Assembly: GCF_014203115.1 (NCBI RefSeq)
Contig: NZ_JACHIJ010000006.1
Span: forward strand, 1 to 64,000
Reading direction: 5' to 3'
Origin: Afipia massiliensis
GTDB taxonomy: Bacteria > Pseudomonadota > Alphaproteobacteria > Rhizobiales > Xanthobacteraceae
Length of the DNA: 64,000 nucleotides
A program made the position numbers and the translations under genes. The notes beneath the pieces were generated by a model that worked only from the letters and a program-made list of their open reading frames with translations, ran no database searches and was not told where the DNA came from. Below, in pieces: positions 1 to 25,580 of the stretch; positions within the stretch are counted from its first letter, which is position 1; each line of letters begins with the position of its first letter.

Positions 1-1
1 G

Positions 2-877
2 GCTCACACCAAGCGAGTTTGCCAACCGTTCAAACAGGGACGAAAACCAGAACAGAGTCTACTTATAAACGAGGGCAATCAGGGGTGCAGGTCACTAACA
101 ATTATCCAATCGCGCTTTGGGTCGCGTAACGCTATCGATGCCGATCACGCGGATGCGCTGTATGACGCTTTTTTAGCGTTCGAGGTGGACGAGAGTGCTG
201 ACGTTGCCGTCATTTGGGGAGAAGGCGGCGCATTTTGTGCTGGAGCAGATTTGAAGAGTCTTGCGGCTCGTGGCATAGCAACGCGCGAGAATTCTGCCAC
301 GCACCGATCTTTAGATTTTCCCGAGGACAGTGGCCCAATTCCACGCGGGCCCATGGGGCCAACGCGGCTCAGACTCAGCAAGCCGGTTATCGCAGCGATC
401 GAGGGGCCGGCTGTTGCTGGTGGTATGGAGCTTGCGTTGTGGGCAGATTGTCGCGTCATGGCTGAAGGCGCTTATATGGGAGTATACTCTCGGCGTTTTG
501 GGATACCAATGACTGATGGCGGTACAGTTCGACTTCCGCGTCTAGTGGGCCAAGGTCGCGCTCTTGAAATTATTATGACGGGTCGCAAGGTGAAAGCAGA
601 GGAATGCTTGCGCATTGGTCTTTGCGAAATCGTCGTGCCCGAAGGGCAAGCGCGCCAATCTGCTGAGGATATGGCGCAAGAGATTTCGCGATTTCCGCAG
701 GCGTGCATGCGCGCTGATCGGCGCTCCGTTTATCTTCAGAACGGTCAGGGCGAACACGCTGCCTTGGTTCAAGAATGGTACAACTGCAATGGTGTTTTTA
801 ACGCGGAAGGGGCTGTTGGCGCGGCAAGATTTGCTCACGGAAACGGCCGCCATGGAGATTTTAGCAAGATCTCATAA
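2..877 (+). CDS. Enoyl-CoA hydratase/isomerase family protein, 5' end outside window or lost
   Basis: Crotonase-fold protein that would hydrate or isomerise an acyl-CoA double bond. The N-terminal RNAID motif starts at 125, the first oxyanion-hole segment (AFCAGADLKSL) follows near 230-262, and the second (AIEGPAVAGGMELAL) near 394-438. The frame is open from base 2 to the stop at 877 and has no ATG, GTG or TTG before the GTG at 185. That GTG lies inside the conserved fold, so it is not a believable start. The gene therefore begins before base 1 or has lost its start. Homology is clear from about 92 onward. The substrate cannot be told. No operon partner is visible, and the next gene converges on it. 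Confidence 0.75.
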   Translation, partial: AHTKRVCQPFKQGRKPEQSLLINEGNQGCRSLTIIQSRFGSRNAIDADHADALYDAFLAFEVDESADVAVIWGEGGAFCAGADLKSLAARGIATRENSATHRSLDFPEDSGPIPRGPMGPTRLRLSKPVIAAIEGPAVAGGMELALWADCRVMAEGAYMGVYSRRFGIPMTDGGTVRLPRLVGQGRALEIIMTGRKVKAEECLRIGLCEIVVPEGQARQSAEDMAQEISRFPQACMRADRRSVYLQNGQGEHAALVQEWYNCNGVFNAEGAVGAARFAHGNGRHGDFSKIS

Positions 878-970
878 CTCCAGTCGACAATGCCGAGCGT
901 AGCTCTCGTTTTTTGCTGATCAGCGCTGAGTATATCACGCAACCTCTGAGGGAGTCGTAGGACGGGCACG

Positions 971-1381
971 TTAATCAGTCACGACGCTAAATGTACCACT
1001 CGCCCGGGCGCATCGCTTGCCATCGGCGGTGACGATGCATTGCGCAAAGCAGAGTTTCCTGCCGACCTTGATGACGTCGGTTTCGATCGAAACCCATTGC
1101 CCGATTTTTGCTGAGCTGATGAAATCGATCGAAAGGCTGGCGGTTAGTAAGCGCGTTTTTCCGTCCCGCTTCATGCCACAACTCAGTCCCATCGCATTAT
1201 CGGCGAGCGCCGTGATGAAGCCGCCGTGGGCAAAGCCACGCGAGTTGGTGTGCGGCTCCGCTAACCGCACGCCGAGAAGAACGGCATCCTGCGTCCTTTT
1301 GTAGTAAATCGGCTCCCATGGCGCCGTGATCGGACTCGGCCGAATGTGCGGTTCGAAACCTTCGGGAATAGTGGCGTTCAT
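971..1381 (-). CDS. PaaI-type hotdog-fold thioesterase
   Basis: A 136-residue single-domain hotdog protein of the PaaI/YigI type, expected to hydrolyse acyl- or aryl-CoA thioesters in the cytoplasm. The active-site helix HGGFITALADNAMG lies at residues 52-65, after the N-terminal strand region, and the length is normal for the family. It converges with the enoyl-CoA hydratase to its left. Together they fit salvage of CoA from dead-end acyl-CoA esters, but they are not co-transcribed. The exact substrate is unknown. Confidence 0.8.
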   Translation of the reverse strand: MNATIPEGFEPHIRPSPITAPWEPIYYKRTQDAVLLGVRLAEPHTNSRGFAHGGFITALADNAMGLSCGMKRDGKTRLLTASLSIDFISSAKIGQWVSIETDVIKVGRKLCFAQCIVTADGKRCARASGTFSVVTD

Positions 1382-2090
1382 GCATCGCTCTCATGGACAG
1401 TGCATAGCGAGGCTTCGCCTTGCGCTGGGTCTCGTCGACAAAGTTGCAACGTGATTTTAGCGTCCGTCAATCCCGTGTCAGCAGTTGCCTCATAGGGCAC
1501 ATAGCAAGGCGGATAAGGACCGAATATTCAATTATTCGCAAGACGAAGTTCGCCAATTCAGAAGGATATGGGCAGGAGTTGAAGAGAGGCGTAGCAATAG
1601 TTGATTGAATGAGAGGCCAGGTTACCTACCGGAATCACGAAGAGGGTATCGCGCGAGTAAGCCTCATTCGTGTGGAAGCAATTGTTATCCAAGCGGATAT
1701 AGCCTTTCAACATGGACGACCTATTGAGTGCATTCTGCTCGCTTCGACGGCATCGGATACTGTGAGAGAAACCAACGGATCGGGTTCGTCGTTTGCGCGA
1801 TCGCGGCTGTTCCACACCTCGATCCATCGCTGCTGTATAATTGCGCTTCGGTCATACCAGCAATCGTGGCTGGATTGGCCAATGATCGCATTTATAGGTC
1901 ATCTCGCATTTTTCCAACTTATAGTGTCAAAATTTCAAAGAGCAAAATCGTGACCAGCTGTTAGAGTAGATTGCTGCGTTAATACGCTTTTGCCGAGGCC
2001 ATGGCGGTCCTGTGATTGGAGTCCGCTCTAGCATTTGGTTGGAGTTATATTTTCTTCCCTGTTGTCCATCTGTAACTTTCGGATATCCCA
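1382..2090. other. Gene-poor stretch with no intact gene
   Basis: About 700 bases between the thioesterase and a cupin gene. Open frames of 60-114 codons exist here but none resembles a known family or has a convincing ribosome binding site. The only recognisable trace is a possible NTF2-like remnant on the minus strand near 1707-1855. The DNA is more AT-rich than the right half of the window. Confidence 0.5.
1707..1855 (-). pseudogene. Possible frameshifted N-terminus of a SnoaL/NTF2-like protein
   Basis: On the minus strand an ATG at 1855 opens with MTEAQ. In the neighbouring frame, a few codons later, the reading is WIEVWNSRD. In intact SnoaL-like proteins these two pieces are joined as one N-terminal helix (MTEAQ...W-I-x-x-W-N-S-x-D). 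The same pattern appears in the clearer remnant at 4713-4993. After this point no frame keeps the family pattern. The match is short, so this is a weak call. Confidence 0.25.
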
Positions 2091-2402
2091 ATGGCTTTTG
2101 AATGCACATGCCCGGCCATATCGACGGTCCAGGAAGACAATGCAACGGTTCGCATCACGCGATGGGATTTCGAGCCGGGAGCGGTCACTGGTTGGCATCG
2201 TCACGGCTGGCCTTACTTCGTTGTCATGTTGACCGACGGCATTTTGCGTATCCATGACGGCACATCTGTTACGGACGTTCTCCTTGTCGCCGGCCAATCG
2301 TACATGCGGAAATCCGGCGTGGAGCACGACGTCATGAATGGGTCTCCCCACCCAATTGGGTTCGTAGAGATTGAAATCAAACGACCTGAATGGCTCGACT
2401 AG
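2091..2402 (+). CDS. Small cupin-domain protein
   Basis: A 103-residue single cupin barrel. The first metal-binding motif reads WHRHGWPYFVVML at about residues 36-48. The usual glutamate of the family motif is not seen after the HxH pair, so metal binding may be altered. The second half (AGQSYMRKSGVEHDVMN) carries the motif-2 histidine. Proteins of this size are often accessory dioxygenases or ligand sensors in catabolic clusters. There is no partner on the same strand within 500 bases. The function is unknown beyond the fold. Confidence 0.7.
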   Translation: MAFECTCPAISTVQEDNATVRITRWDFEPGAVTGWHRHGWPYFVVMLTDGILRIHDGTSVTDVLLVAGQSYMRKSGVEHDVMNGSPHPIGFVEIEIKRPEWLD

Positions 2403-2958
2403 TCGAAAGAGCAATTTATTCGGAACCTTTCTTAGATCCCGCTAAGTGGTCCATTCCACTTCTTTGCTCGACGAAACTGTCTGGCGAATTCGAGACTTTG
2501 TGATTGCCGATCCAATGGGAGTTCTCTGGCGCATAGGGTAAAAAAATCTCAGTGCCGGAAGCGGCGATTAAAGTAGCCAATAGCGTGCGAAGCTACGCCA
2601 TGCAGTGTCAGCATCACAATCTCTCAAAGCGGCTTCCAGAATTTGCCAACGGAATGGCCAATCCTACGGGACTCGTCGTATCCGGCACGGTTGCGCGCCA
2701 CCGGCCGCACACTGGGTATCGCTTGAAGTTAAAACGATGTGCAGCGTTCGCATCGATATTCAAGATCTAGCCTATTCTCGTTTTCGATCCACTGAAGTTT
2801 GACTTCAGCATTAAGCGGATATTCAAGGCGTGCGATCGTTACTAACCATAATCGTTGCGCTCGCCATCGTTTGTAAATGATCTAATGACGATTGTTTCGA
2901 TTCAGAGGACAGTGCGGCGGGATGAGGCTCGGATTGAGTTTCGAAAATTGGATTCCTG
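2403..2958. other. Intergenic stretch carrying a conserved operator-like block
   Basis: No intact gene is recognised in these 556 bases. Two overlapping open frames (from 2552 and 2605) resemble nothing known. The stretch contains the inverted-repeat block at 2782-2807, about 150 bases before the next enoyl-CoA hydratase gene. Confidence 0.5.
2782..2807 (+). promoter_or_regulatory. 26-bp inverted-repeat block, copy C
   Basis: TTTCGA, five bases, then TGAAGTTTGACTTCA. The core is a perfect inverted repeat (CTGAAGT, 3 bases, ACTTCAG) at 2792-2808. The same architecture recurs at 4456, 7589 and 23109. The block lies 151 bases upstream of the enoyl-CoA hydratase at 2959. Probably a binding site for a dimeric regulator, with TTGACT inside it possibly serving as a -35 element. 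Confidence 0.5.
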
Positions 2959-3744
2959 ATGACGACTAAAAATCAGTCTGTAGAATTTCGCGTGGATAAC
3001 GCAATAGCCTACGTGACGCTTAATCGGCCCGATCAAGGCAACGCGATTAACGCGGATATCGTCAATGATCTGGTGCGTATTGCCCACCTTTGCGACAATG
3101 ACCCACAGATCAAAGTTGTGCTGCTTTCGGCAAACGGAAAAATGTTTAGCGTCGGCGGGGACCTAGCGCTATTCTCCACTATGGGAGATCAAATCCGAGT
3201 TACCCTGAAGGGGCTGGCGGACCAATTGCATAAAGCAATCTCCCTTTTTGCGCGCATGGACGTACCTTTAGTAATCGCCGTGAATGGAATAGCGGCCGGC
3301 GGTGGGTTCAGTCTTTGTTTGATCGGAGATTATGTTATTGCGGCGGAGTCGGCCAAATTCACGATGGCATATACCAAAGCTGGGTTAAGCCCCGATGGCA
3401 GCTCCACCTATTTTTTACCCCGTCTTGTAGGATTGCGAAAAGCACAAGAGCTAGCGTTAGCTAATCGCACGCTTTCGGCTCAGGAGGCCGCGGACTGGGG
3501 GTTGATCACGCGCGTGGTGCCTGATGCTTCTTTGAAGGAAGAAGCGCGCGCCATTTGCCAGTCGCTGGCAAACGGGCCAAAGCATGCTCAGGCTGTGGTG
3601 AAGCGGTTGCTTTTCTGTTCTCCACGCAATGGTCTCGAAGAGCAGATGGAAATCGAAGGGCGTGAAATCGCCAATACAGCAGCTTCGGTCGAGGGAAAGG
3701 AAGGCATCCGTGCTTTTATCGAAAAGAGAACTCCTCGATTCTAG
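2959..3744 (+). CDS. Enoyl-CoA hydratase/isomerase family protein
   Basis: A full-length (261 residues) crotonase-family enzyme acting on acyl-CoA in the cytoplasm. LNRPDQGNAI at residues 21-30, MFSVGGDLALF at about 62-72 and NGIAAGGGFSLCL at about 109-121 form the acyl-CoA oxyanion hole. The segment KAGLSPDGSSTYFLPRLVG occupies the region of the second catalytic acid, where Asp stands in place of the usual Glu. It is closer to the PaaG/isomerase branch than to classical hydratase, but substrate cannot be assigned. The ATG at 2959 gives the normal family N-terminus. An inverted-repeat operator lies upstream at 2782. Confidence 0.85.
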   Translation: MTTKNQSVEFRVDNAIAYVTLNRPDQGNAINADIVNDLVRIAHLCDNDPQIKVVLLSANGKMFSVGGDLALFSTMGDQIRVTLKGLADQLHKAISLFARMDVPLVIAVNGIAAGGGFSLCLIGDYVIAAESAKFTMAYTKAGLSPDGSSTYFLPRLVGLRKAQELALANRTLSAQEAADWGLITRVVPDASLKEEARAICQSLANGPKHAQAVVKRLLFCSPRNGLEEQMEIEGREIANTAASVEGKEGIRAFIEKRTPRF

Positions 3745-3889
3745 ATGAACCCTTGGGTGGAGCGGATGGCGATGATTTCGGATTTAAAACATTTGGACAA
3801 CGGTACGTCAGGCGTTTGAAGGTCCATGAAGTAACGAGCGTGACTTTTTGGCGGACGCTGGCACCAATCACAAACTTGGGAAAAACATC

Positions 3890-4294
3890 ATGTGGGATCG
3901 GAAGGGCGGCTGTTTGTGTGGGGCTGTGCGTTACGCGTTGAAGAGCGAACCTCGGGCAATCGCGATATGTCATTGTACGCGGTGCCAGCGGCAAAGCGGC
4001 AGCTTGTTCTCGTTCAACCTTGTTATCAAGGAAACTGACTATGAGCAGTCGGGCGAGACCATGGTCTACGTGGATAAGGGTGATAGCGGGCAGTCTGTCT
4101 ATCGTCATTTTTGCGGCAGCTGCGGGTCGCCAATATTAGCGAAGACAGCGTTGGCGCCTGGGAAGGTCGTTGTGAAGGCGGGCACTCTCGATAGCATGGA
4201 GGGCTTACAGCCGAAGACCGAGATATACACCGATCACGCAGCGAAATGGCTTGCGCCTGTCGCGGGAGCTGCGCGCTTTGCCCGGAATCTATGA
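3890..4294 (+). CDS. GFA-family zinc protein (glutathione-dependent formaldehyde-activating type)
   Basis: A 134-residue zinc-binding protein of the GFA/CENP-V fold. The cysteine motifs are in order: GGCLCGAVRY near the N-terminus, CHCTRCQRQSG, and FCGSCGSP. The ATG at 3890 was chosen because it directly precedes the conserved N-terminus. An upstream TTG at 3848 would add 14 unconserved residues. Named for S-hydroxymethylglutathione formation, but most family members have no proven reaction. It follows the enoyl-CoA hydratase on the same strand with a gap of about 145 bases. Confidence 0.8.
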   Translation: MWDRKGGCLCGAVRYALKSEPRAIAICHCTRCQRQSGSLFSFNLVIKETDYEQSGETMVYVDKGDSGQSVYRHFCGSCGSPILAKTALAPGKVVVKAGTLDSMEGLQPKTEIYTDHAAKWLAPVAGAARFARNL

Positions 4295-4455
4295 CCTTGA
4301 GATGAAGATGCAACATTGATGCTTGAAAGATTTTGTCGCTACGGCGCATAAATGTCCCCTCATTTAAGTGGTTTCGTGGAGCAGCAGCTCGCTAGCCGAG
4401 GCGAGCGTATTCAAGGAGCGTACTAGACGATCGCGGCTTGCTGTCGCTTACTTCA

Positions 4456-4481
4456 TTTCGACTCGTTGGTATCTGACTTCA
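4456..4481 (+). promoter_or_regulatory. 26-bp inverted-repeat block, copy A (degenerate left arm)
   Basis: TTTCGA, five bases, then TGGTATCTGACTTCA. The right arm is intact and the left arm diverges. The register is the same as in copies at 2782, 7589 and 23109. It lies just before the candidate small RNA that ends at 4592, so it probably controls that transcript. Confidence 0.35.
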
Positions 4482-4497
4482 ACTCTTTTGAATTTTA

Positions 4498-4592
4498 TTC
4501 GGTAGAGCTTTGCTGTAATCACCGAAGCGCCAATACTGGCATCTCCTCACCTCATGCCGCGCCATCCATCGAGTTGGCGCGGCATATTTTTC
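4498..4592 (+). ncRNA. Candidate small RNA A (terminator-ended, paralogue of the one near 7.7 kb)
   Basis: No coding potential on the plus strand. Three possible hairpins occur in order: CGGT 4500-4503 with ACCG 4521-4524, GCCA 4529-4532 with TGGC 4537-4540, and the strong terminator at 4554. Between the last two lies TCTCCT (4542-4547), which could pair with Shine-Dalgarno sequences. The copy at 7630-7732 shares the order of elements, the loop word GCTGTAA(A)TCA, the anti-Shine-Dalgarno word and the terminator, while some stem bases differ. The 5' end is a guess. An attenuated leader of a lost gene is the main alternative. Confidence 0.35.
4554..4592 (+). terminator. Intrinsic terminator
   Basis: Perfect 10-bp stem ATGCCGCGCC / GGCGCGGCAT with a 12-base loop, followed by ATTTTT. 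The stem sequence is nearly the same as that of the terminator at 7699. Confidence 0.8.
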
Positions 4593-4712
4593 CCAGTTTT
4601 GGCTCCGACGTCTTGCTCCGATCGAGACGACGCGTATGAACCCATTAACGAACGTTTCTCATCAGAAGATGATGATGTGCCGAGCCCTTAAACAATCTTT
4701 CCATCGGTGCCC

Positions 4713-4993
4713 TCACGCGGATGCGTCACATTTCATTTTGAAAACGAATAGCGATGCTGTTTGGGCCGCTCGAAAGATCAATAAGGTTGAATGCAAGTTC
4801 GAAGATTTAGTCCCAGGCCAAGGCTCCATCTGCAGAGCATCCCGCCCTCTTAGTTGACCGCTATTACTCACGTAAAGCAGTGATAACGCTGTCGAGTGCA
4901 TCTCCTCGTCGACTTGAGCACGCAGTCGAGATAATGACTGTTCCAGCCATCGATCCAGCTGTGGCCCAAATCCTCCATTTGCGCTTCTGTCAT
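4713..4993 (-). pseudogene. Frameshifted SnoaL/NTF2-like gene
   Basis: On the minus strand the ATG at 4993 opens with MTEAQMEDLGHSWIDGWNSH, the typical N-terminal helix of SnoaL-like proteins. That frame soon leaves the family pattern. The neighbouring frame then continues it (DEEMHSTALSLLYVSNSGQLRGRDALQ, then NLHSTLLI and LFVFKMKCDAS) to a stop at 4713. The two frames together give most of a fold of about 130 residues, so a small indel near 4900 disrupted the gene. An intact distant relative sits at 7784. Confidence 0.55.
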
Positions 4994-5171
4994 GCCACTC
5001 TCGCGTATCTCTGCATTCCGTTCGGTGTCTGGATAGTCTGGGAGTTTCGACCATTCGAAAATGCGAAATCTCGATTTCAGATTTCAAAAGTGCATAAGGG
5101 AACTTTGTAAGTTACGATGGGCGGGTCAACATGCGAATCTTCGCGCTAAAAGATGAGTAAGAGAATTCTGA

Positions 5172-5544
5172 ATGAGAGCGGGTGAAGACAAGAAGATCCT
5201 TGCAATCAACGCGGAAGATACAGAACCGCCCCCGAAGTCATCGTCGTATCCGGAGCCCATCTTCAGCAGGGTGGCCAAGCACAAGCAGCGACCGCGCTGC
5301 GATTTGTTTGAGCTCAAAAACTACAGTGTGAATCTGAGTAGGCGTTTTCCATGCGGAGAGTCGTCGATTTTACATCGACACAGCGAACGATATGTATTCA
5401 TACATCGCGCATCAGTTGATCAACCGCGCAGCAGACATCGTTTCCTACCTTGAAATTGGTGATAGACGCCCGATGATAGGGGTGCGTACTCTCATGACGA
5501 TTGAAAGTGGAGACGATGGGCATCAGGGCAACCGACCGCAGTAA
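5172..5544 (+). pseudogene. Cupin-domain gene with internal deletion and frameshift
   Basis: The ATG at 5172 reads through a cupin N-terminus: SSYPEPIFSRVAKHKQRPRC, then LFELKNYSVNLSRRFPCGES, then the metal motif LHRHSER. It runs off frame near 5400 and stops at about 5453. The next frame carries the typical end of the same family, AHQLINRAADIVSYLEIGDRRP, ending at 5544. The central strands (roughly 40 residues, including the rest of motif 1) are missing. The product cannot fold as a cupin, so this is a remnant. Confidence 0.65.
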
Positions 5545-5621
5545 AGATGCTCGGGGTAAGGACTCCAAACGTCATTATTGATGGTCTTTCCAGGGCGTGA
5601 ACTCAGTTTGGGAGGAACAAG

Positions 5622-6173
5622 ATGAGCAGCGCGGCGGGTATGCGAAGACATGATTTGATTATGTCGGAGGAGCAAGCGTTCAATGCGCTTGAGCAGGGTT
5701 TTAGTGGCTGGTTGGCAACCGTTGGACAGGATGGAATGCCGTACTGTACGCCTATGCTCTATATTTGCATGGATAATAGGGTGTATCTACACAGCACGCG
5801 CGCAAAAGGTTTGTTCCGAAATAATATAGACAATAACGCCAAGGTCTGCTTCGGCGTTGATGATCCGGATCAGGTTTACGCCTACGGACGCTTTGAGTGC
5901 GACTCCGCATTGGCATATCAAAGCGTGATAATGACCGGCGAGATCGAAGTAATTGAAGATCTCGAAACCAAGCAGCGATTCTGTGAGCGCCTTATGGCAA
6001 AGTATGGAAAGAAAGATTGGGATCGCCCGAGCGGTTTCTTCCCGCGTCTCAATCAGATCGCCGTTTATGCCATCACCATTCAACGTCTCACCGGAAAAAA
6101 GATCGAGTTGCCCGGGGTGTCGCAGCAGTGGCCGGCAATTGATCGAACAAAGACTCCCAATGCCCACTCTTAA
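5622..6173 (+). CDS. Pyridoxamine 5'-phosphate oxidase-like flavin-binding protein
   Basis: A 183-residue split-barrel protein of the PNPOx-like class, expected to bind FMN or F420/haem-type cofactors and act as a small cytoplasmic oxidoreductase. The motif GFSGWLATVGQDGMPYCTPM (about 28-47) is the first barrel strand pair. LHSTRAKGLFRNNIDNNAKVCF (about 58-79) holds the phosphate-contact region. A strong GGAGGA ribosome site lies just before the ATG. It is followed after 27 bases by a glutathione transferase, so the two may be co-transcribed. The substrate is unknown. Confidence 0.75.
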   Translation: MSSAAGMRRHDLIMSEEQAFNALEQGFSGWLATVGQDGMPYCTPMLYICMDNRVYLHSTRAKGLFRNNIDNNAKVCFGVDDPDQVYAYGRFECDSALAYQSVIMTGEIEVIEDLETKQRFCERLMAKYGKKDWDRPSGFFPRLNQIAVYAITIQRLTGKKIELPGVSQQWPAIDRTKTPNAHS

Positions 6174-6200
6174 ACCAAATGCAAGAAGGGTTACGTCGGG

Positions 6201-6839
6201 ATGAAACAGTCGATGAAGCTCTTCTATGCTGCTCATACTTGCGCGCTCGCATCGCACATCGCTTTAGAGGAAGCGGGTGCGGAATATGTCGCGATCCGGA
6301 TCGATTTTGGTGCTGACGAGCAGCGCAAACCGGACTATTTGGCTATCAATCCGAAAGGTCACGTGCCAGCGCTTGTGACGGAGCTGGGCGTTCTGACGGA
6401 GACGCCCGCGATTCTCGCCTTCATTGCTCAAAGCTTTCCTGATGCTGGGCTGGCGCCGTTCGATGATCCTTTCTCGTTCGCAAAGATCCAAAGCTTCAAC
6501 AGCTATCTTTGCTCGACTGTACATGTAGCGCACGCACATCGGATGCGAGGTTACCGCTGGGCGGATGGTCAGGCTGCGATCGAAGCGATGCAGAGAAAGG
6601 TTCCGCAATCGGTTGGTAGTTGCTTTTCGCTGATTGAAAAGGAGATGTTTGCTGGACCGTGGGTGATGGGTGCCACTTACACGGTGTGTGATCCTTATCT
6701 ATTTACTCTCTCGCAATGGTTAGAAGCTGACGGCGTCGATATCCATAAAATGCCCAAAATATCAGAGCATAGACTGCGGATGATGGGGCGGCCTGAGGTT
6801 GCGAGGGCAATCGCAATGGAGACACGTTCCGAGGTCTAA
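6201..6839 (+). CDS. Glutathione S-transferase family protein
   Basis: A 212-residue two-domain GST. The N-terminal thioredoxin-like domain starts KLFYAAHTCALASHIALEEAG, where the Cys-Ala/Ser region matches beta-class enzymes. INPKGHVPAL carries the cis-proline, and LTETPAILAFIA is the glutathione gamma-Glu contact. The helical C-terminal domain carries the WVMGATYTVCDPYLFTL capping motif. It probably conjugates or removes groups from electrophilic compounds in the cytoplasm. An in-frame ATG at 6213 is an alternative start. It lies directly downstream of the flavin-binding protein gene. Confidence 0.85.
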   Translation: MKQSMKLFYAAHTCALASHIALEEAGAEYVAIRIDFGADEQRKPDYLAINPKGHVPALVTELGVLTETPAILAFIAQSFPDAGLAPFDDPFSFAKIQSFNSYLCSTVHVAHAHRMRGYRWADGQAAIEAMQRKVPQSVGSCFSLIEKEMFAGPWVMGATYTVCDPYLFTLSQWLEADGVDIHKMPKISEHRLRMMGRPEVARAIAMETRSEV

Positions 6840-6994
6840 ACCAATGGCTTGTTCCCGCCGTTGCTATCCGCGATATCCAAGTTGGCACACCGTCTGACGC
6901 GTTTCGTGTTGACTTGGTCACATTAGGTGATCGGCGTTGGTCGCTGAAGGTGATGTAGCAGAGCCGCGCATGTTGAACGTAAGGGAGACGAGGA

Positions 6995-7378
6995 TTGACG
7001 ACAACTAAGAAGCTGTTACCAGCAGTTCTCAAGATGCGCACGTTCGTGCCAGCCAAAAATTTTGAGGAGAGCAGAAAGTTTTACGAAGCTCTAGGATTCG
7101 CGTCGACAAAATTGAATGACAAATCGTTCGAGATGCGACTCGGAAGCGAAGCCTTCTTCCTTCAGAATTTCTATGTAAAAGAGTTTGCAGACAATCTTAT
7201 GATGCAAGTACTTGTGAGCGACCTCGATGAGTGGTGGGACCACATATCGGGTCTTTCACTGGAAAGAAATTTTCATGTGGTTCCCGCACGACCGCCGAGC
7301 CTCCAACCGTGGGGTTTGCGGGTAGCCTACGTATGGGATCCTTCTGGCGTACTCTGGCATTTTGCCTCCGATAGCTGA
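6995..7378 (+). CDS. VOC-family (glyoxalase/bleomycin resistance) protein
   Basis: A 127-residue vicinal-oxygen-chelate protein with two beta-alpha-beta-beta-beta modules. MRTFVPAKNFEESRKFYEAL opens the first and the second begins around LMMQVLVSDLDEWWDHI. The TTG at 6995 is preceded by GGGAGACGAGGA, a good ribosome site, and no ATG fits the family N-terminus better. VOC proteins range from lyases and dioxygenases to drug-binding proteins. The metal-ligand pattern is not clear here, so no reaction is assigned. Confidence 0.7.
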   Translation: MTTTKKLLPAVLKMRTFVPAKNFEESRKFYEALGFASTKLNDKSFEMRLGSEAFFLQNFYVKEFADNLMMQVLVSDLDEWWDHISGLSLERNFHVVPARPPSLQPWGLRVAYVWDPSGVLWHFASDS

Positions 7379-7468
7379 CGGCGGCGTTCCTTAAGAGTCA
7401 CTTGTTCTCGATTGAATTTGAGAGAATCCATTGATTATCTTTCGGCTGATCAAAGCTAGTGGTCGCGA

Positions 7469-7675
7469 TCATGATGTGTTGGCGTCGTCGCAGCAGCACG
7501 TATCGCCGCGTCTTAGTTGCAGAGGGTTAGGGTGACGTTTTTTTAACTGATGAGGAAAGAGGCCAAACCTTATCAGTAGAAAAGCGGATTTCGAAGCACT
7601 GATGTTTGGCTTCAATATTTTGAGATTTTGCTCTACCGTTTCATGCTGTAAATCATACGGTGCCACTCTAGGCAT
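7469..7675 (-). CDS. Possible small protein, unrecognised
   Basis: A 68-codon minus-strand frame beginning MPRVAPYDLQHETVEQ. Its only support is an AAGGAG sequence 9 bases before the ATG. The protein resembles no family known to me and is lysine-rich in the middle. It is antisense to the candidate small RNA, and the AAGGAG is the complement of that RNA's TCTCCTT word, so one of the two readings is probably accidental. No homologous frame survives at the related locus near 4.5 kb, which argues against coding. Confidence 0.15.
   Translation of the reverse strand: MPRVAPYDLQHETVEQNLKILKPNISASKSAFLLIRFGLFPHQLKKRHPNPLQLRRGDTCCCDDANTS
7589..7614 (+). promoter_or_regulatory. 26-bp inverted-repeat block, copy B
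   Basis: TTTCGA, five bases, then TGATGTTTGGCTTCA, differing from copy C at two core positions. It precedes the candidate small RNA and lies 170 bases upstream of the NTF2-like gene at 7784. Confidence 0.4.
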
Positions 7676-7732
7676 CTGTTATATCTCCTTGAACTTAAGC
7701 CGCGCCAATCATTGAATTGGCGCGGCCTTTTT
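7630..7732 (+). ncRNA. Candidate small RNA B (paralogue of the one near 4.5 kb)
   Basis: The order of elements matches copy A. ACCGT 7635-7639 can pair with ACGGT 7657-7661 around a loop containing GCTGTAAATCA. TGCC 7661-7664 can pair with GGCA 7671-7674. The single-stranded TCTCCTT (7684-7690) could base-pair with ribosome binding sites. The segment ends in a strong terminator. Stem bases differ from copy A while pairing is kept in the first hairpin, which favours a functional RNA. The 5' end is not determined. It could instead be the attenuator leader of the NTF2-like gene 50 bases downstream. Confidence 0.35.
7699..7732 (+). terminator. Intrinsic terminator
   Basis: Perfect 11-bp stem GCCGCGCCAAT / ATTGGCGCGGC with a 6-base loop and a CTTTTTC tail. 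It closely resembles the terminator at 4554. Confidence 0.8.
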
Positions 7733-7783
7733 CTCGATAAAGAGCGGTTGTTTTCTGGGTGCCAGAACTAGGGTTGTGAAACT

Positions 7784-8164
7784 ATGCATAACAGTGCAAT
7801 CCAAGAAGTAGTTCGAACATATATGTTGGCGTGGAATGAAACCGACGCCGATCAAAGGTACCAGTTGCTCACCCGGTGCTGGGGAGCTGATGCGGTGTAC
7901 GTCGATCCCTCCGTGCAGCTTTTCGGGCGCGATGCGCTTGCTGATCGAATTTCGATAGTTCAATCGAAGAGACCTGGCTCTCGCCTGGAGTTCGTAAGCG
8001 GTATCGATACACATCATAGTATGGTCAGGTTTCTATGGCGCGTTGCCAGAGCTGACGGCAGTTTCGGCGATACGTCGATCGACTTCGGCGAAGTGGGAGC
8101 GGGTGGCCGATTGGAAAAAATGGTGGGATTCTTCGGCGCTCCACCAAGCATCCCGCTTATCTGA
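7784..8164 (+). CDS. SnoaL/NTF2-like protein
   Basis: A 126-residue cone-fold (NTF2-like) protein. The N-terminal helix IQEVVRTYMLAWNETDADQR and the strand pair around ADAVYVDPSVQLFGRDALADRI are typical of the SnoaL-like group, which binds small ligands or acts as ketosteroid-isomerase-like or hydrolase enzymes. Residues that would fix a reaction cannot be picked out. It lies 50 bases beyond the terminator at 7699, so read-through or its own promoter must drive it. Two decayed relatives lie on the other strand at 1.8 and 4.9 kb. Confidence 0.65.
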   Translation: MHNSAIQEVVRTYMLAWNETDADQRYQLLTRCWGADAVYVDPSVQLFGRDALADRISIVQSKRPGSRLEFVSGIDTHHSMVRFLWRVARADGSFGDTSIDFGEVGAGGRLEKMVGFFGAPPSIPLI

Positions 8165-8190
8165 TCGAGGCTCGATCCGTATAGCGCTTT

Positions 8191-8210
8191 CGATCTGAAT
8201 TATCAGATCG
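8191..8210. terminator. Stem-loop between convergent genes
   Basis: CGATCTGA, loop ATTA, TCAGATCG: an 8-bp perfect stem in the 78-base gap between the convergent NTF2-like and LysE genes. No T-run follows on either strand, so if it terminates it does so weakly. Confidence 0.35.
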
Positions 8211-8242
8211 GATCATGCGCGGAAAATGTTTGAGGCTTGCCA

Positions 8243-8842
8243 TCATACGATGATCAAGATCGTCGAGGCGGCGAGTAGTAGGCCCATAGCGCGGTTGAAA
8301 ATCCGCGCGGTAGAGCGCTGCAGGAAAAGGTGCCGTTCAAGTAGGGCACCAAATAGAAGCCAGATCAGCAGGCTAGGGACAGCGGCGAGGAAAAACAGCA
8401 ATGCAAATGCACCGGCATAAGGGATGATGCTGATGGAATCGGAATGAAAGTACGCGCCGATAGCGCCGGTGGCCACAATCCACGACTTTGGATTCACCCA
8501 CTGAAACAATGCGGCATGATAAAAGCCAAATGCTTTCTTGTCCTTGGTATCGCCGACTACTTCTGCCGTGGCAATCTTCCACGACAACCAAAGCAGGAAC
8601 AGTGCACCCAGCCAGTTCATCAGCGGCAAGATGCTCTTGTGCGCAACAAGAAGTTGACCGAGGCCGAGAGCGACGGAAAACATTAGAGAGGCCATTCCGA
8701 CTGATACGCCAAGGAGGCATGGGAGACCGCGCCAGAAGCCAACCGCGGCGCCGGTAGCTGTCACCATAATATTGCTTGGCCCAGGAGTGATGGCGGCCAC
8801 CACCGAAAAGGTCAAGAAGGCAAGTATCTCCTGGCGGGTCAT
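8243..8842 (-). CDS. LysE/RhtB-family exporter
   Basis: A 199-residue inner-membrane protein with about six transmembrane helices. The family signature AAITPGPSNIMV lies at residues 16-27 after the first helix, with a second conserved loop FQWVNPKSWIVATGAIGAY in the middle. Members export amino acids or related metabolites. It is on the same strand as, and downstream of, a LysR-type gene, with a gap of about 100 bases. That pairing is common for LysE exporters controlled by a metabolite-sensing regulator. Confidence 0.85.
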   Translation of the reverse strand: MTRQEILAFLTFSVVAAITPGPSNIMVTATGAAVGFWRGLPCLLGVSVGMASLMFSVALGLGQLLVAHKSILPLMNWLGALFLLWLSWKIATAEVVGDTKDKKAFGFYHAALFQWVNPKSWIVATGAIGAYFHSDSISIIPYAGAFALLFFLAAVPSLLIWLLFGALLERHLFLQRSTARIFNRAMGLLLAASTILIIV

Positions 8843-8948
8843 CTCACGACGTCCAATCCGATACCAGTATATTGAAAATGCGCCTTAGTGATGTTGCGCG
8901 TGACCTAGGTGCTCAAACAGCAGATGCTTCGTGATGGAGCGAGGATTA

Positions 8949-9875
8949 TTAAGGTCGCGCGCGAATTTCGCGAGGTAATTTCAGTGCTTTTCGGGGTTCG
9001 ACTATCGTTTCGCCGACTCGGTTTCGAACAACTTGGTAAAGGATGTCTCGCAAGTCTGCAGCTGCGGGGGACAACTCACTTGCGGTCAACATTCGCAATT
9101 CAATCGCAGGCAGAGGTGGAAGGCCGAACTCTGCGCCCACGTCGCGAATGCCCGGAGGGACATGATGGCTCGTTCTTGGCGAGATACCATAGCCGGACTG
9201 CAGGGCCGCCCAAACGCCAGGCAAACTGGGCGTTGTGAGGGATAAACGCCAGCGAAGTTTTTTGCCTTCCAGAACTTGGAATGCGGCTTGGCGAAACAGA
9301 CACGGATGATCGAACACGACAAGCGGAATTGGATCTTGTACCTCGGATCGGCTCATTCCCTTCCCACCAAACCACATCATTGGCAGAGATGCGATCAAAG
9401 TGCCGTGGTTAGAAGAATTAGCTTTGAAGAAAGCCAGCGCAACATCGAGCCGGCTGGAGTTAATTTCTTCCTCAAGCGAGTAATTGCGACCGGCGCGGAC
9501 TTCAACATGGATTGCGGGGCGCTTTTTGGAAAATTGCCCGAGGGCATCGGGCATCACGTCTTCGAAGAAGTCTTGAGGAAGTCCCATCCGTACAGACGCA
9601 GCTGCGGTCATCGCGCCGACAGACGCAGCGGCCTCGTCATTCAGGGCGATAATACGTCGTGCATACATAAGTAGGGAATCGCCAGCCTCGGTTGGCACGA
9701 GGCCGCGGCCGTTGCGGCGGAACAATGGTTTTCCAGCCTGTTCCTCAAGTTTCTTCAATTGCATACTAACAGCGGACTGCGACCGGCCAAGCTGCGATGC
9801 TGCTCGAGCGAAACTTCCGAGCTCAAGTCCCAAGACCATCGTGCGCAAAGCGTCCATATCGAAGTTCGGCTTCAT
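8949..9875 (-). CDS. LysR-family transcriptional regulator
   Basis: A DNA-binding activator/repressor of 308 residues from the ATG at 9875. The winged helix-turn-helix covers about residues 7-65 (MDALRTMVLGLELGSFARAA, then QLGRSQSAVSMQLKKLEEQ). The periplasmic-binding-like effector domain starts near residue 95. An earlier start at 9926 would add 17 residues before the normal LysR N-terminus and is less likely. It probably controls the LysE exporter gene beyond it, or the divergent RraA-like gene, since its 5' end faces the 10000 gene across about 125 bases. Confidence 0.85.
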   Translation of the reverse strand: MKPNFDMDALRTMVLGLELGSFARAASQLGRSQSAVSMQLKKLEEQAGKPLFRRNGRGLVPTEAGDSLLMYARRIIALNDEAAASVGAMTAAASVRMGLPQDFFEDVMPDALGQFSKKRPAIHVEVRAGRNYSLEEEINSSRLDVALAFFKANSSNHGTLIASLPMMWFGGKGMSRSEVQDPIPLVVFDHPCLFRQAAFQVLEGKKLRWRLSLTTPSLPGVWAALQSGYGISPRTSHHVPPGIRDVGAEFGLPPLPAIELRMLTASELSPAAADLRDILYQVVRNRVGETIVEPRKALKLPREIRARP

Positions 9876-9999
9876 TCTTTTGAATTCCAGAATTGTGATT
9901 TCAGAACTATATGATATTCGAAACAATCATCTCTTGCTAGTGTTTTGATATCGGGCGGCTGATTTCGCGGAAACGCGATTTGGCGCGCTCCATCCAAGC

Positions 10000-10719
10000 A
10001 TGGAGATTGTAATCTTGAGCCAGGCGCTGGTCGATCAGCTAAACAAACTTACGACGCCGTATCTGGCGGATGGTTGCTTGAGAACGGGTGTTCCAATCCG
10101 TTTTGCGCCAGCGGGCATAAATCCGCTCGTCGGCGACATGCGCTGCGCCGGGCGTGCGCGTCCAATTCGTCACGTCGGCAGCATTGATATTTTCTTTGAG
10201 GCGCTTGAGAGCTCGTCTCCCGGCGATGTTTTTGTCATCGACAACGGCGCGCGTCTCGATGAGGCATGTATTGGCGATATTGTCGTGCTCGAAGCCAAAG
10301 CGGCGGGCATCGCCGGCGTGGTGGTTTGGGGGCTGCACCGCGATAGCAAGGAACTCAACGACATCGGCTTTCCCGTGTTCAGCATGGGTTCGTTGCCGAC
10401 CGGCCCGCAGCGTCTGCACGTTAGGCCTCCGGATATCTTGACCCGCGCAACGGTCGGTACTCATGCCATCACATCCAGCGACTTTGTCGTTGGTGATGCC
10501 AATGGTGTTCTCTTCCTGCCGGAAGACCGTCTGGAAAACATCGTTACTGCCGCGATCTCCTATCGCGAGACGGAGGCGCGGCAACTCAAAGGTATGAACG
10601 ACGGCCGAAGCTACCGTTCCCAAACACGCTTCAGTGAATATCTGGCGCGACGGCAGCGCGAGCCCAGCTACGGCTTTCGTCAGCATCTGAAGGACATTGA
10701 GGCTGCGGGCGAAGTCTAA
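10000..10719 (+). CDS. RraA-like protein / class II pyruvate aldolase family
   Basis: A 239-residue protein of the RraA fold, which includes 4-hydroxy-4-methyl-2-oxoglutarate/oxaloacetate aldolases as well as the RNase E regulator. The Gly-rich stretch with GAVVW-like [10 protein letters not shown] carries the Arg-Asp pair that binds substrate and metal in the aldolases. [13 protein letters not shown] is the conserved C-terminal half motif. It sits at the head of a row of metabolic genes (quinone oxidoreductase, semialdehyde dehydrogenase, hydroxyacid oxidase), which favours an aldolase or decarboxylase role over RNA regulation. Confidence 0.75.
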
Positions 10720-20703: not shown

Positions 20704-20991
20704 CTCTACATTCAGTTCAGGCAGAGAGGCGTTCAACCTCTGTCTGGGTTCCACAAGTTTTGCTTCACTAATATCTGATTTCGGAATTATTGGGATTATC
20801 AAGACCTTCGCATCGTCATAGAGAGCGGTCCGCAATAAGGGATGTCGCCACGCTGGTCCTGCCTGTTTTCGTGGCTCATCGCGATACTAATGAAGATTCG
20901 ATAGCGTGCGGCATAAGCCGCGATCATGCTAGCCGCAACAATAACAAAATTGGCGGGTGACCAATAAAGCAACACCACTCAGGGGGATGCG

Positions 20992-21528: not shown

Positions 21529-21553
21529 CAACCGCACGAGTCGGGATTAGTTG

Positions 21554-22975
21554 ATGTTTTCGCACGGCATATTTCCCCCGTTGATGTTCGGGTCCATGAT
21601 CCTGTTTATGCTGATCGGGTTTCCGGTCGCATTCTCATTGGCTGCGGTTGGATTGTTTTTCGGCATTCTGGGAACCAATACAGGACACTTCGATCCATCG
21701 TTTCTGCAGGCTCTCCCCTTCCGCTTTTACGGAATCATTTCAAACGAGCTGTTGCTGTCGATTCCATTCTTTACATTCATGGGTGCGATTCTTGAACGGT
21801 GCGGTCTTGCGGAAGATTTGCTCGAAGGCACAGGTCAACTGTTCGGAAAAATTCCAGGTGGTCTCGCCTATGCCGTGATCCTCGTTGGCGCCATTCTTGG
21901 AGCGATCACCGGCACGGTGGCTGCCTCGGTCATCGCCATGGGCGTTATCTCGCTGCCGATCATGATCCGCTACGGTTACGATATGCGCCTCGCGACCGGT
22001 GTTATCGCAGCGTCCGGAACCATCACGCAGTTGATTCCTCCGTCGCTCGTGCTGATCGTACTCGCCGACCAGCTCGGCCGTTCCGTCGGCGACATGTACC
22101 TCGGCGCAATCGGCCCCTCGATCCTGCAGGTCGTGATCTTCCTGCTCTACATCGTCGGCGTATCGATCCTGCAGCCCCAAAAAATGCCGCCCCTTCCCGA
22201 GTCGGCGCGAGAGCCAATGGACTGGAAGCTCGTCAGCCGCGTGCTGTGGGGCATGATCCCTTCGATCGTCTTGATCTTTCTCGTTCTCGGCACCATCGGT
22301 CTCGGGCTTGCGACACCCACCGAGGCCGGCGCCATGGGCGCAGTCGGCGCGATGGTCCTCGCCGCGATGCACCGTCGCCTGACATGGCCGCTGGTCGAAC
22401 AGGCGATGACGTCCACGATGCGGCTGACATCCATGGTGGTGTTCATCCTTGTCGGCTCGACCTGCTTCAGCCTCGTGTTCCAGGGCATGGATGGCGGGCG
22501 CTGGATCGAGCATCTGCTCACGGGGCTGCCGGGGGGTGCCATCGGATTCCTGATCTTCGTCAACATCTTCGTATTCTTCCTGGCGTTCTTCCTGGACTTC
22601 TTCGAGATCGCCTTCATCATCATTCCACTGCTTGCGCCGGTCGCCTCCAAGCTTGGCATTGACCTGGTGTGGTTCGGAGTCCTGCTCTGCGTCAACATGC
22701 AGACGTCGTTCATGCACCCGCCGTTCGGCTTCGCGCTGTTCTACCTGCGCGGCATCGCCCCACCTGAAGTAAAGAGCTCGGACATCTATTGGGGCGCCAT
22801 GCCGTGGGTGCTGATGCAAGTCATCCTGGTGATTATCGTGATCTACTGGCCGGGTGCGGTGACCTACTGGATCGACACCACCAAGGTCGACACCACCAAC
22901 ATCAAGATCAACATCCCAGAGAATGAGATACCGCAACTCGAACTGCAGAGAACTGATAGCGCGCTATGGAGGTAG
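21554..22975 (+). CDS. TRAP transporter large permease (DctM-type)
   Basis: A 473-residue inner-membrane protein with about 11-12 helices that conducts the Na+-coupled solute symport. LGAITGTVAASVIAMGVISLP and ASGTITQLIPPSLVLIVLAD are the two conserved DctM hairpin regions. The C-terminal HPPFGFALFYLRGIAPPEV is also typical. The 474-residue frame begins at a TTG, and the ATG one codon later is preferred. The matching receptor gene lies downstream, after a hairpin and an operator-like block, so it may be transcribed separately. Confidence 0.9.
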   Translation: MFSHGIFPPLMFGSMILFMLIGFPVAFSLAAVGLFFGILGTNTGHFDPSFLQALPFRFYGIISNELLLSIPFFTFMGAILERCGLAEDLLEGTGQLFGKIPGGLAYAVILVGAILGAITGTVAASVIAMGVISLPIMIRYGYDMRLATGVIAASGTITQLIPPSLVLIVLADQLGRSVGDMYLGAIGPSILQVVIFLLYIVGVSILQPQKMPPLPESAREPMDWKLVSRVLWGMIPSIVLIFLVLGTIGLGLATPTEAGAMGAVGAMVLAAMHRRLTWPLVEQAMTSTMRLTSMVVFILVGSTCFSLVFQGMDGGRWIEHLLTGLPGGAIGFLIFVNIFVFFLAFFLDFFEIAFIIIPLLAPVASKLGIDLVWFGVLLCVNMQTSFMHPPFGFALFYLRGIAPPEVKSSDIYWGAMPWVLMQVILVIIVIYWPGAVTYWIDTTKVDTTNIKINIPENEIPQLELQRTDSALWR

Positions 22976-23108: not shown

Positions 23109-24355
<1,247 letters not shown>

Positions 24356-24689: not shown

Positions 24690-25580
24690 ATGAACAATCC
24701 GTATGCACCCATTGGCTTCATCGGTCTCGGTACCATGGGTGAGCCAATGGCATTGAATCTGATCAAGGCGGGTCTTCCGCTTGTTGTGTGGAATCGCTCT
24801 CACGTAAAGTGCAAAAGCGTCGCCGCGTTAGGTGCGGCTGTCGCCACGCATCCGGAAGAAGTATTTCTGCGGTGTGAAGTTGTCATTGTCATGCTGGTCG
24901 ACGGACCTGCCCTGGATGATGTTCTGGTGCGAAACGGACGAGCGTTCAATGACCGTGTGCGTGGTCGTATCTTGATTAACATGGCGACAACCGCGCCTGA
25001 GTATTCAAAAGCTCTTGAGGCAGACGTCATTGCTGCGGGAGGACGTTACGTCGAGGCTCCGGTATCTGGCTCGCGCAAGCCTGCGGAGGCTGGGAAACTG
25101 ATAGGCATGCTAGCAGGGGAAAAGGAATCTATAGACACCGTACGGTCGTTGCTTGCGCCAATGTGCAGCAATGTCGTTCCTTGCGGAAATGTGCCGAATG
25201 CACTTCTTATGAAGCTTTCTGTGAATCTGTTTCTGACCGCAATCGTCGCTGGACTTTCTGAGGCTGTGCATTTCGCAAGTCGCCAGAAACTGGATCTCTC
25301 GAAATTTTTCGCTGTACTCGATGCTGGGCCATTGGCAAGCGACGTATCGCGCATCAAGGGCGAAAAGTTTCTGTCGCAGGACTTCGCTGTGCAGGCGTCA
25401 ATCCGCAATGTTCTCGAAAATGTCCAGCTGATTTCAAATGCTGCGCAGGCAGCAGGGATTGCTTCGCCACTACTGAATGTCTGCCTCGCTCTCTTCACTG
25501 AGGCCAGCGCCTTGGGTTTTGCGGACAGCGACATGATTGCAGTGATACGGGCGATCGAGCAACGAACATCTGAACTCTAA
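24690..25580 (+). CDS. 3-hydroxyisobutyrate dehydrogenase-like NAD(P)-dependent oxidoreductase
   Basis: A 296-residue beta-hydroxyacid dehydrogenase. The Rossmann motif GFIGLGTMGEPMA lies at about 8-20, substrate-binding APVSGSRKPAE at about 127-137, and the catalytic Lys near residue 174 in LLMKLSVNLF. Family members oxidise 3-hydroxyisobutyrate, tartronate semialdehyde or related 3-hydroxyacids. 3-hydroxyisobutyrate is a valine intermediate, which fits the bkd operon upstream, but the exact substrate is open. A cupin gene follows. Confidence 0.85.
   Translation: MNNPYAPIGFIGLGTMGEPMALNLIKAGLPLVVWNRSHVKCKSVAALGAAVATHPEEVFLRCEVVIVMLVDGPALDDVLVRNGRAFNDRVRGRILINMATTAPEYSKALEADVIAAGGRYVEAPVSGSRKPAEAGKLIGMLAGEKESIDTVRSLLAPMCSNVVPCGNVPNALLMKLSVNLFLTAIVAGLSEAVHFASRQKLDLSKFFAVLDAGPLASDVSRIKGEKFLSQDFAVQASIRNVLENVQLISNAAQAAGIASPLLNVCLALFTEASALGFADSDMIAVIRAIEQRTSEL

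Follow-up and report, generated by a model that had tools for sequence, protein, structure and literature searches.

Background

AbcR1 and AbcR2 are two homologous RNAs of 121 and 114 nucleotides (nt) that carry unpaired anti-Shine-Dalgarno words and take part in the control of transport genes (PMC8844928, PMC7143759; here and below, papers are cited from partial text). A LysR-type regulator, LsrB/VtlR, is described at the gene of one of the two RNAs in Sinorhizobium, Agrobacterium and Brucella (PMC7486931, PMC8844928, PMC7143759), and in the accounts of Sinorhizobium dependence on LsrB is given for AbcR1 only (PMC8844928, PMC7143759, PMC7486931). NfeR1, which has three identical anti-Shine-Dalgarno words, acts on the mRNAs of periplasmic binding proteins (PMC8844928, PMC7143759), and SuhB acts on the mRNA of a catabolic regulator in Sphingopyxis granuli (PMC6563040), which is, by analogy, a precedent for small-RNA action on a catabolic pathway. 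Here we analyze two segments, A (4456-4590) and B (7589-7732), of a 64,000-nt stretch of Afipia massiliensis DNA (positions 1 to 64,000 of contig NZ_JACHIJ010000006.1; 'the window'), which an earlier reading of the letters alone (the sequence-only reading) had proposed to be a small-RNA family with an exposed TCTCCT word that blocks ribosome-binding sites. We lean, by a small measure, toward reading A and B as two predicted sibling small-RNA genes that share a promoter element with the uptake and catabolic genes of a LysR-type regulon and act by UCUCCU pairing.

A repeated unit that ends in a terminator

A and B match as whole units, and both have sharp ends. With the terminator left out, their local alignment scores 26 (mean for dinucleotide shuffles 9.7, standard deviation 1.7), a value reached by none of 3,000 shuffles, and the 150-nt flanks are unrelated (1,689 and 4,282 of 5,000 shuffles reach the flank alignment scores), bearing out the earlier claim that the segments match over their whole length. 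When the alignment is taken piecewise, no shuffle of 5,000 reaches the score of the 5' 41 nt or that of the terminator; the core between these pieces lies in register with the 5' block (51 identities in 89 ungapped columns of block plus core). The repeated unit consists of a probable promoter element, about 100 nt, and a terminator, and the small-RNA reading is strengthened because A and B share the element and form a unit with unrelated flanks. In blastn searches of their own genome, A and B each returned only themselves, so blastn alone is blind to the relation between them. A two-sequence model (R1) found no third copy there; it recovers A and B because it was built from them.

The two segments show no coding signal (differences are spread over alignment columns modulo 3 as 15, 11 and 12; p 0.71), in agreement with the sequence-only reading that neither encodes a convincing protein. 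Both fold better than shuffled sequences (z of -3.9 for A and -3.7 for B, with 0 of 200 shuffles each), a result to which the included terminator contributes. The terminators, of the form GCCGCGCC..GGCGCGGC, lie on the forward strand at 4554-4592 in A (stem 4554-4585, then a T run) and at 7699-7732 in B (stem 7699-7726, then a T run). Two scans detect that of B, and that of A is absent from the generic scan listing because its loop is longer than the scan allows. A strong intrinsic terminator within the next 204 nt is found for two of the eight elements described below, namely those of A and B (ending at 4585 and 7726), and in 14 of 400 random stretches of contigs C6 and C11.

A probable promoter or operator element at eight sites

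The 5' block of A and B consists of TTTCG followed by the palindrome TGAAGTNTGACTTCA, and is best read as DNA that more likely serves as promoter or operator than as part of an RNA. A motif built from A, B and a site at 2782 also fits sites at 23109, 20758 and, more weakly, 9878, and the palindrome is exact at C6:2793, C6:23120 and C11:79866. The motif scan took in 324 kilobases (kb) of contig C6 together with contig C11 in full, 83 kb (in the remaining genome, the palindrome only); within these 407 kb on two contigs, eight sites score 34.4 to 40.8 bits, and the next match scores 21.9. Because the sites themselves define the motif, we rescored every site with a motif built without it. With a 31-nt motif, this leave-one-out test set the eight sites against 864,132 null positions, and every site outscored them all. 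The element of A lies at 4456-4481 (34.4 bits with the eight-site motif) and that of B at 7589-7614 (38.8 bits; 32.1 when left out, against a null maximum of 22.9).

All eight elements have the same orientation, and the forward strand also bears the terminators of A and B. A good AT-rich box can be seen by eye 12 to 18 nt past the palindrome at five of the eight sites; at C11:79684 none is evident. The sequence-only reading had described this block as a degenerate inverted repeat within the RNA: the block is indeed present in both segments, but it is unlikely to be an RNA part, as it is common to eight sites that mostly precede ordinary genes. Promoter-like sites on the minus strand that read GCTGTAAATCA backwards, at 4519, 7652 and 2877 (9 found, 6.4 expected), were set aside because the eight elements point the opposite way and the terminators are on the forward strand.

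Predicted RNAs and their folds

Possible -10 boxes, both poor matches seen by eye, are TTTTAT at 4493-4498 in A (spaced as in the clearer boxes of the other sites) and TTTTGC at 7626-7631 in B. Taking the start from box spacing and the end from the terminator, the predicted RNAs run on the forward strand from 4505 to 4592 (A) and from 7637 to 7732 (B). Folded from 4505, A has in its lowest-energy structures a 5' hairpin (GCUUUG/CGAAGC, 4507-4528), a small hairpin (GCCA/UGGC, 4529-4540), an unpaired UCUCCU (4542-4547; unpaired probability 0.96-0.99 for this start) and the terminator, in that order. The fold of B is less clear than that of A; it contains a small hairpin (TGCC/GGCA, 7661-7674) with three G-C pairs in common with that of A, and a UCUCCU word at 7684-7689 (unpaired probability 0.58-0.99). 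The TCTCCT word, the GCC/GGC hairpin and the terminators picked out by the sequence-only reading are thus present in both copies.

The further claim, that a first stem differs in sequence between the copies and still pairs, did not survive. The proposed stems, CGGT/ACCG in A (4500-4503/4521-4524) and ACCGT/ACGGT in B (7635-7639/7657-7661), lie in different registers; projected on the alignment, the stem of B pairs at two of five positions in A; the 3' arm of the alternative 6-base-pair stem of A, GCTTTG/CGAAGC, falls in the stem columns of B; and when the variable columns are shuffled, a stem of this kind arises in both copies in 1,101 of 20,000 trials. The ACCGU/ACGGU stem is also absent from the computed lowest-energy folds of B, and we rejected the compensating stem as evidence; the covariation argument fails in any case, as two sequences cannot show covariation. 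What stands of the original proposal, and is its best reading, is a two-member family with a mostly unpaired UCUCCU; the support from compensating changes falls away.

Genes at the element sites and the LysR-type regulator

On the forward strand of the window, the element at 2782-2807 (40.5 bits) precedes an enoyl-CoA hydratase gene (2959-3744, by Pfam), that at 20758-20783 (35.1 bits) precedes TRAP genes (a small-permease-like ORF [open reading frame], by eye, followed by DctM at 21551-22975, by Pfam), and that at 23109-23134 (38.2 bits) precedes DctP (23165-24355, by Pfam). The two elements at C11:79684 and C11:79855, 171 nt apart, lie upstream of a chemoreceptor-like sensor gene with Cache and HAMP domains, given which the regulon may include taxis. 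This pair sits near the end of contig C11, a contig that may border C6 in the genome.

The element at 9878-9903 (35.7 bits; 26.9 when left out, against a null maximum of 21.0) lies between an RraA-like gene (10000-10719) and, on the minus strand, the gene of a LysR-type regulator (8949-9875, with Pfam domains HTH_1 and LysR_substrate), at whose start it is found. We chose the start at 9875; the listed ORF starts at TTG 9926. This site is kept in two orthologous loci: next to the LysR orthologues of genomes G168 (84% identical) and G123 (65%), an element occupies the same position relative to lysR, and in G123 the gene beyond it differs (its product is 59% identical to that of 24690-25580 in the window). 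These two sites score 23.5 and 24.4, barely above the null maximum of 23.4 (594,910 positions), and count because of their location at lysR. In five LysR homologues that are more distant, the gene start has a weak site nearby (15.1) in one case and no site in the other four. A site kept together with the regulator, between lysR and a divergent gene, is the arrangement of a LysR-type regulon, and it is seen in our genome (at 9878), in G168 and in G123. The LysR protein is likely the controller of the element, its binding there being a prediction. The G168 orthologue (G168:C15:33407-34327) has one TGA inside the matched frame.

Several features of the neighborhood may be recorded here. In the hydratase leader (2823-2900), ATCGT and ACGAT flank 17 nt that include TTGTAAATGATC and faintly recall the TGCTGTAAATCA part of B; aligned with either A or B, the leader does not score above shuffles. 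Between A and the next gene, two weaker element-like matches (18.8 and 20.4 bits) lie on opposite strands at 5061-5097, and the translation of an ORF at 5172-5453 without a Pfam match resembles the beginning of a truncated cupin-type protein, perhaps from a decayed gene. The G+C content of positions 1-10000 is 50-54%, lower than the 58% of the window as a whole, as might be expected of acquired DNA.

Interpretation and alternatives

If A and B are sibling small-RNA genes, each would comprise the shared promoter/operator element, some 85-95 transcribed nt and a strong intrinsic terminator. Both would probably be regulated by the LysR protein encoded nearby (8949-9875); as the probable common regulator, it would couple the production of the two RNAs to the expression of the TRAP transporter, hydratase and RraA-like genes. 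The UCUCCU region would then pair with the ribosome-binding sites of other mRNAs (for example, those of competing uptake genes) and lower their translation; it would probably block these sites, by analogy with what is thought for the AbcR and SuhB RNAs. From the sequence we infer all of the following: transcription, start sites, LysR binding, activation as against repression, Hfq dependence, UCUCCU pairing and targets.

Several results weigh against this reading. When the element of A is left out of the 31-nt motif, its score of 25.5 exceeds the null maximum, 24.5, by little; when the motif is lengthened to 45 nt, A, 23109 and C11:79684 are each equalled or exceeded by a single null position. 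Allowing up to two mismatches, the palindrome occurs at 32 places and the reversed pattern at 25, which is no clear enrichment. By eye, the AT-rich boxes of A and B are poorer than those of other sites, and within its coverage a generic promoter scan lists no -10 box of any element, A and B included. The cores of A and B, taken alone, are moderately alike (44 of 5,000 shuffles reach their score), and the TCTCCT word of A is about half paired (unpaired probability 0.47-0.69) if the RNA starts at 4500. The complement of the word region of B, with up to two mismatches, occurs at six places including B itself (control 10), and that of A at five including A itself (control 1), which is not clearly an enrichment. 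One of the five other places for B, C6:134518, coincides with the ribosome-binding site of an ORF of 410 codons, the amino terminus of which resembles an ABC-transporter binding protein (by eye), and two of the four other places for A lie at the start codons of ORFs 1.4 kb apart on contig C1; these are candidates only, because words of this kind look like ribosome-binding sites in any case. Pairing energies computed for 47 start regions in the window gave no information (in 3 of the 47, the start assumed is not a start codon).

The searches for relatives belong on the same side. Across 198 family genomes, blastn with B matched its own genome only, and blastn with A matched six, its own and five others with short matches (22-54 nt, E 8e-4 to 0.008). 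We rejected these five as relatives: GCTGTAA is present in none, and the longest match, when read, is without such a unit. Blastn with short words found no match to A or B in the plasmid collection. R1 matched one of 29 genus genomes (our own), 13 of 391 family genomes at E up to 1 (12 non-own, below 22 bits and mostly the terminator alone), and three of 347 order genomes at E up to 0.1 (the two non-own matches being partial, AT-rich and of 22-23 bits, in genomes of 1.4 megabases). The genus, family and order sets overlap, and in the two larger searches, where filters were stricter and no more than 8-9 candidates were scored for each genome, diverged relatives may have been missed. When species genomes were scanned with a DNA pattern drawn from the core, 39 stretches emerged (about 20 hits being expected by chance, as a rough estimate only), in none of which R1 found the full unit (best score 21.0 bits). 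A protein pattern scan with 5622-6173 gave 41 stretches and no relative. Rfam has no match in the window at curated cut-offs; at lax thresholds only matches below cut-off appear, which we discarded (for B the best are suhB and SorY, for A the first is a Staphylococcus RNA). The sequence-only reading had looked to a covariance model of the two copies and its search against related genomes: R1 finds the whole unit in our genome only, and no real covariance model can be built because homologues beyond A and B were not found.

Some of these results would accord with A and B being relics, that is, two old copies of promoter element plus terminator that persist or decay with no role of their own, or that merely offer the regulator a place to bind. 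Relatives of the unit were not found by R1 in the genus, family and order sets, A and B have poor -10 boxes, the likeness of the cores is no better than moderate, and 4592-5622 holds no ORF with a Pfam match. However, operator, small hairpin, TCTCCT and terminator persist in both copies, with the identities ahead of the terminator given above, between flanks that are unrelated. We regard relics as unlikely.

The sequence-only reading had itself offered attenuator leaders as an alternative, in which transcription stops at the terminator and a signal permits read-through into a downstream gene (for B, the ORF at 7784-8164). The terminator of B ends about 50 nt before this ORF, and homologues of the ORF occur in 36 of 198 family genomes, ours among them, which marks it as a real gene. 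A, however, has no convincing gene close downstream (the next Pfam-matched ORF starts at 5622); R1 finds no unit, and hence no conserved leader, upstream of the ORF homologues in the 11 loci tested of 19 non-own ones; and no anti-terminator partner was seen, although no dedicated test was made. The alternative is weakened accordingly, and appears less likely again than relics. The ORF has weak DUF4440 similarity, below cut-off, and a second homologue in our genome (C2:679456-679815, 56% identical). That the segments are ends of duplicated genes or encode a short peptide is very improbable: one frame is open through most of both, but differences fall evenly over codon positions, and by eye the frame of B stops within the loop of the terminator and A lacks a corresponding ATG.

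Returning to the sibling small-RNA genes, a more specific proposal, which we put forward tentatively and hold to be doubtful, is that a pathway-specific LysR regulon acquired a young pair of sibling RNAs, derived from neither AbcR nor SuhB, as mini-genes on its own promoter element, and that on induction these would reset the translation of competing uptake systems, making the pair a genome-specific counterpart of AbcR1/2. If this were true, post-transcriptional control would be tied to one uptake and catabolic regulon via the shared promoter element, and the inducer, the regulator and the RNA targets could be tested together. It would also offer a readable case of small-RNA origin, in which a promoter element and a terminator were doubled in one genome and are not found in the sampled relatives.

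Comparison with known small RNAs

Likeness to SuhB/MmgR (RF00519) lies in the order of parts (small hairpin, CUCC word, GAACUU/GACUU stretch, terminator) and is clearest in B. A true suhB/mmgR gene is present elsewhere in our genome (C4:109606-109683; 71.9 bits, cut-off 41). B (7655-7741) is the fourth best suhB-like place in the genome, at 23.3 bits and thus below the gathering score of 41, and A is absent from the 26 suhB matches (E up to 10). CcsR1, considered here by its Rfam name alone, is an alphaproteobacterial RNA with anti-Shine-Dalgarno words; A reaches 11.8 bits with its model (cut-off 65.3). NfeR1 is alike in being a short RNA with an anti-Shine-Dalgarno word, and differs, in the partial text cited above, in having three such words where A and B have one.

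A search of the open-access literature (titles and abstract openings, with limited terms) did not find a like catabolic small-RNA pair. At lax thresholds, Rfam matches neither A nor B to an AbcR-type family, the presence of an AbcR model in the Rfam set used being unchecked, and membership of A and B in AbcR is not supported. As far as the partial texts go, AbcR1 and AbcR2 lie in tandem with two unpaired anti-Shine-Dalgarno words each, whereas A and B lie 3 kb apart with a single UCUCCU each. LsrB/VtlR and the LysR protein of the window are likened here by regulator class. With these differences, the predicted RNAs share with AbcR1/2, as described in those texts, a homologous pair, a similar length, anti-Shine-Dalgarno words predicted to be unpaired, a proposed action on transport genes and a LysR-type regulator nearby, and by this analogy AbcR1/2 is the known system that would be closest to A and B in its working.

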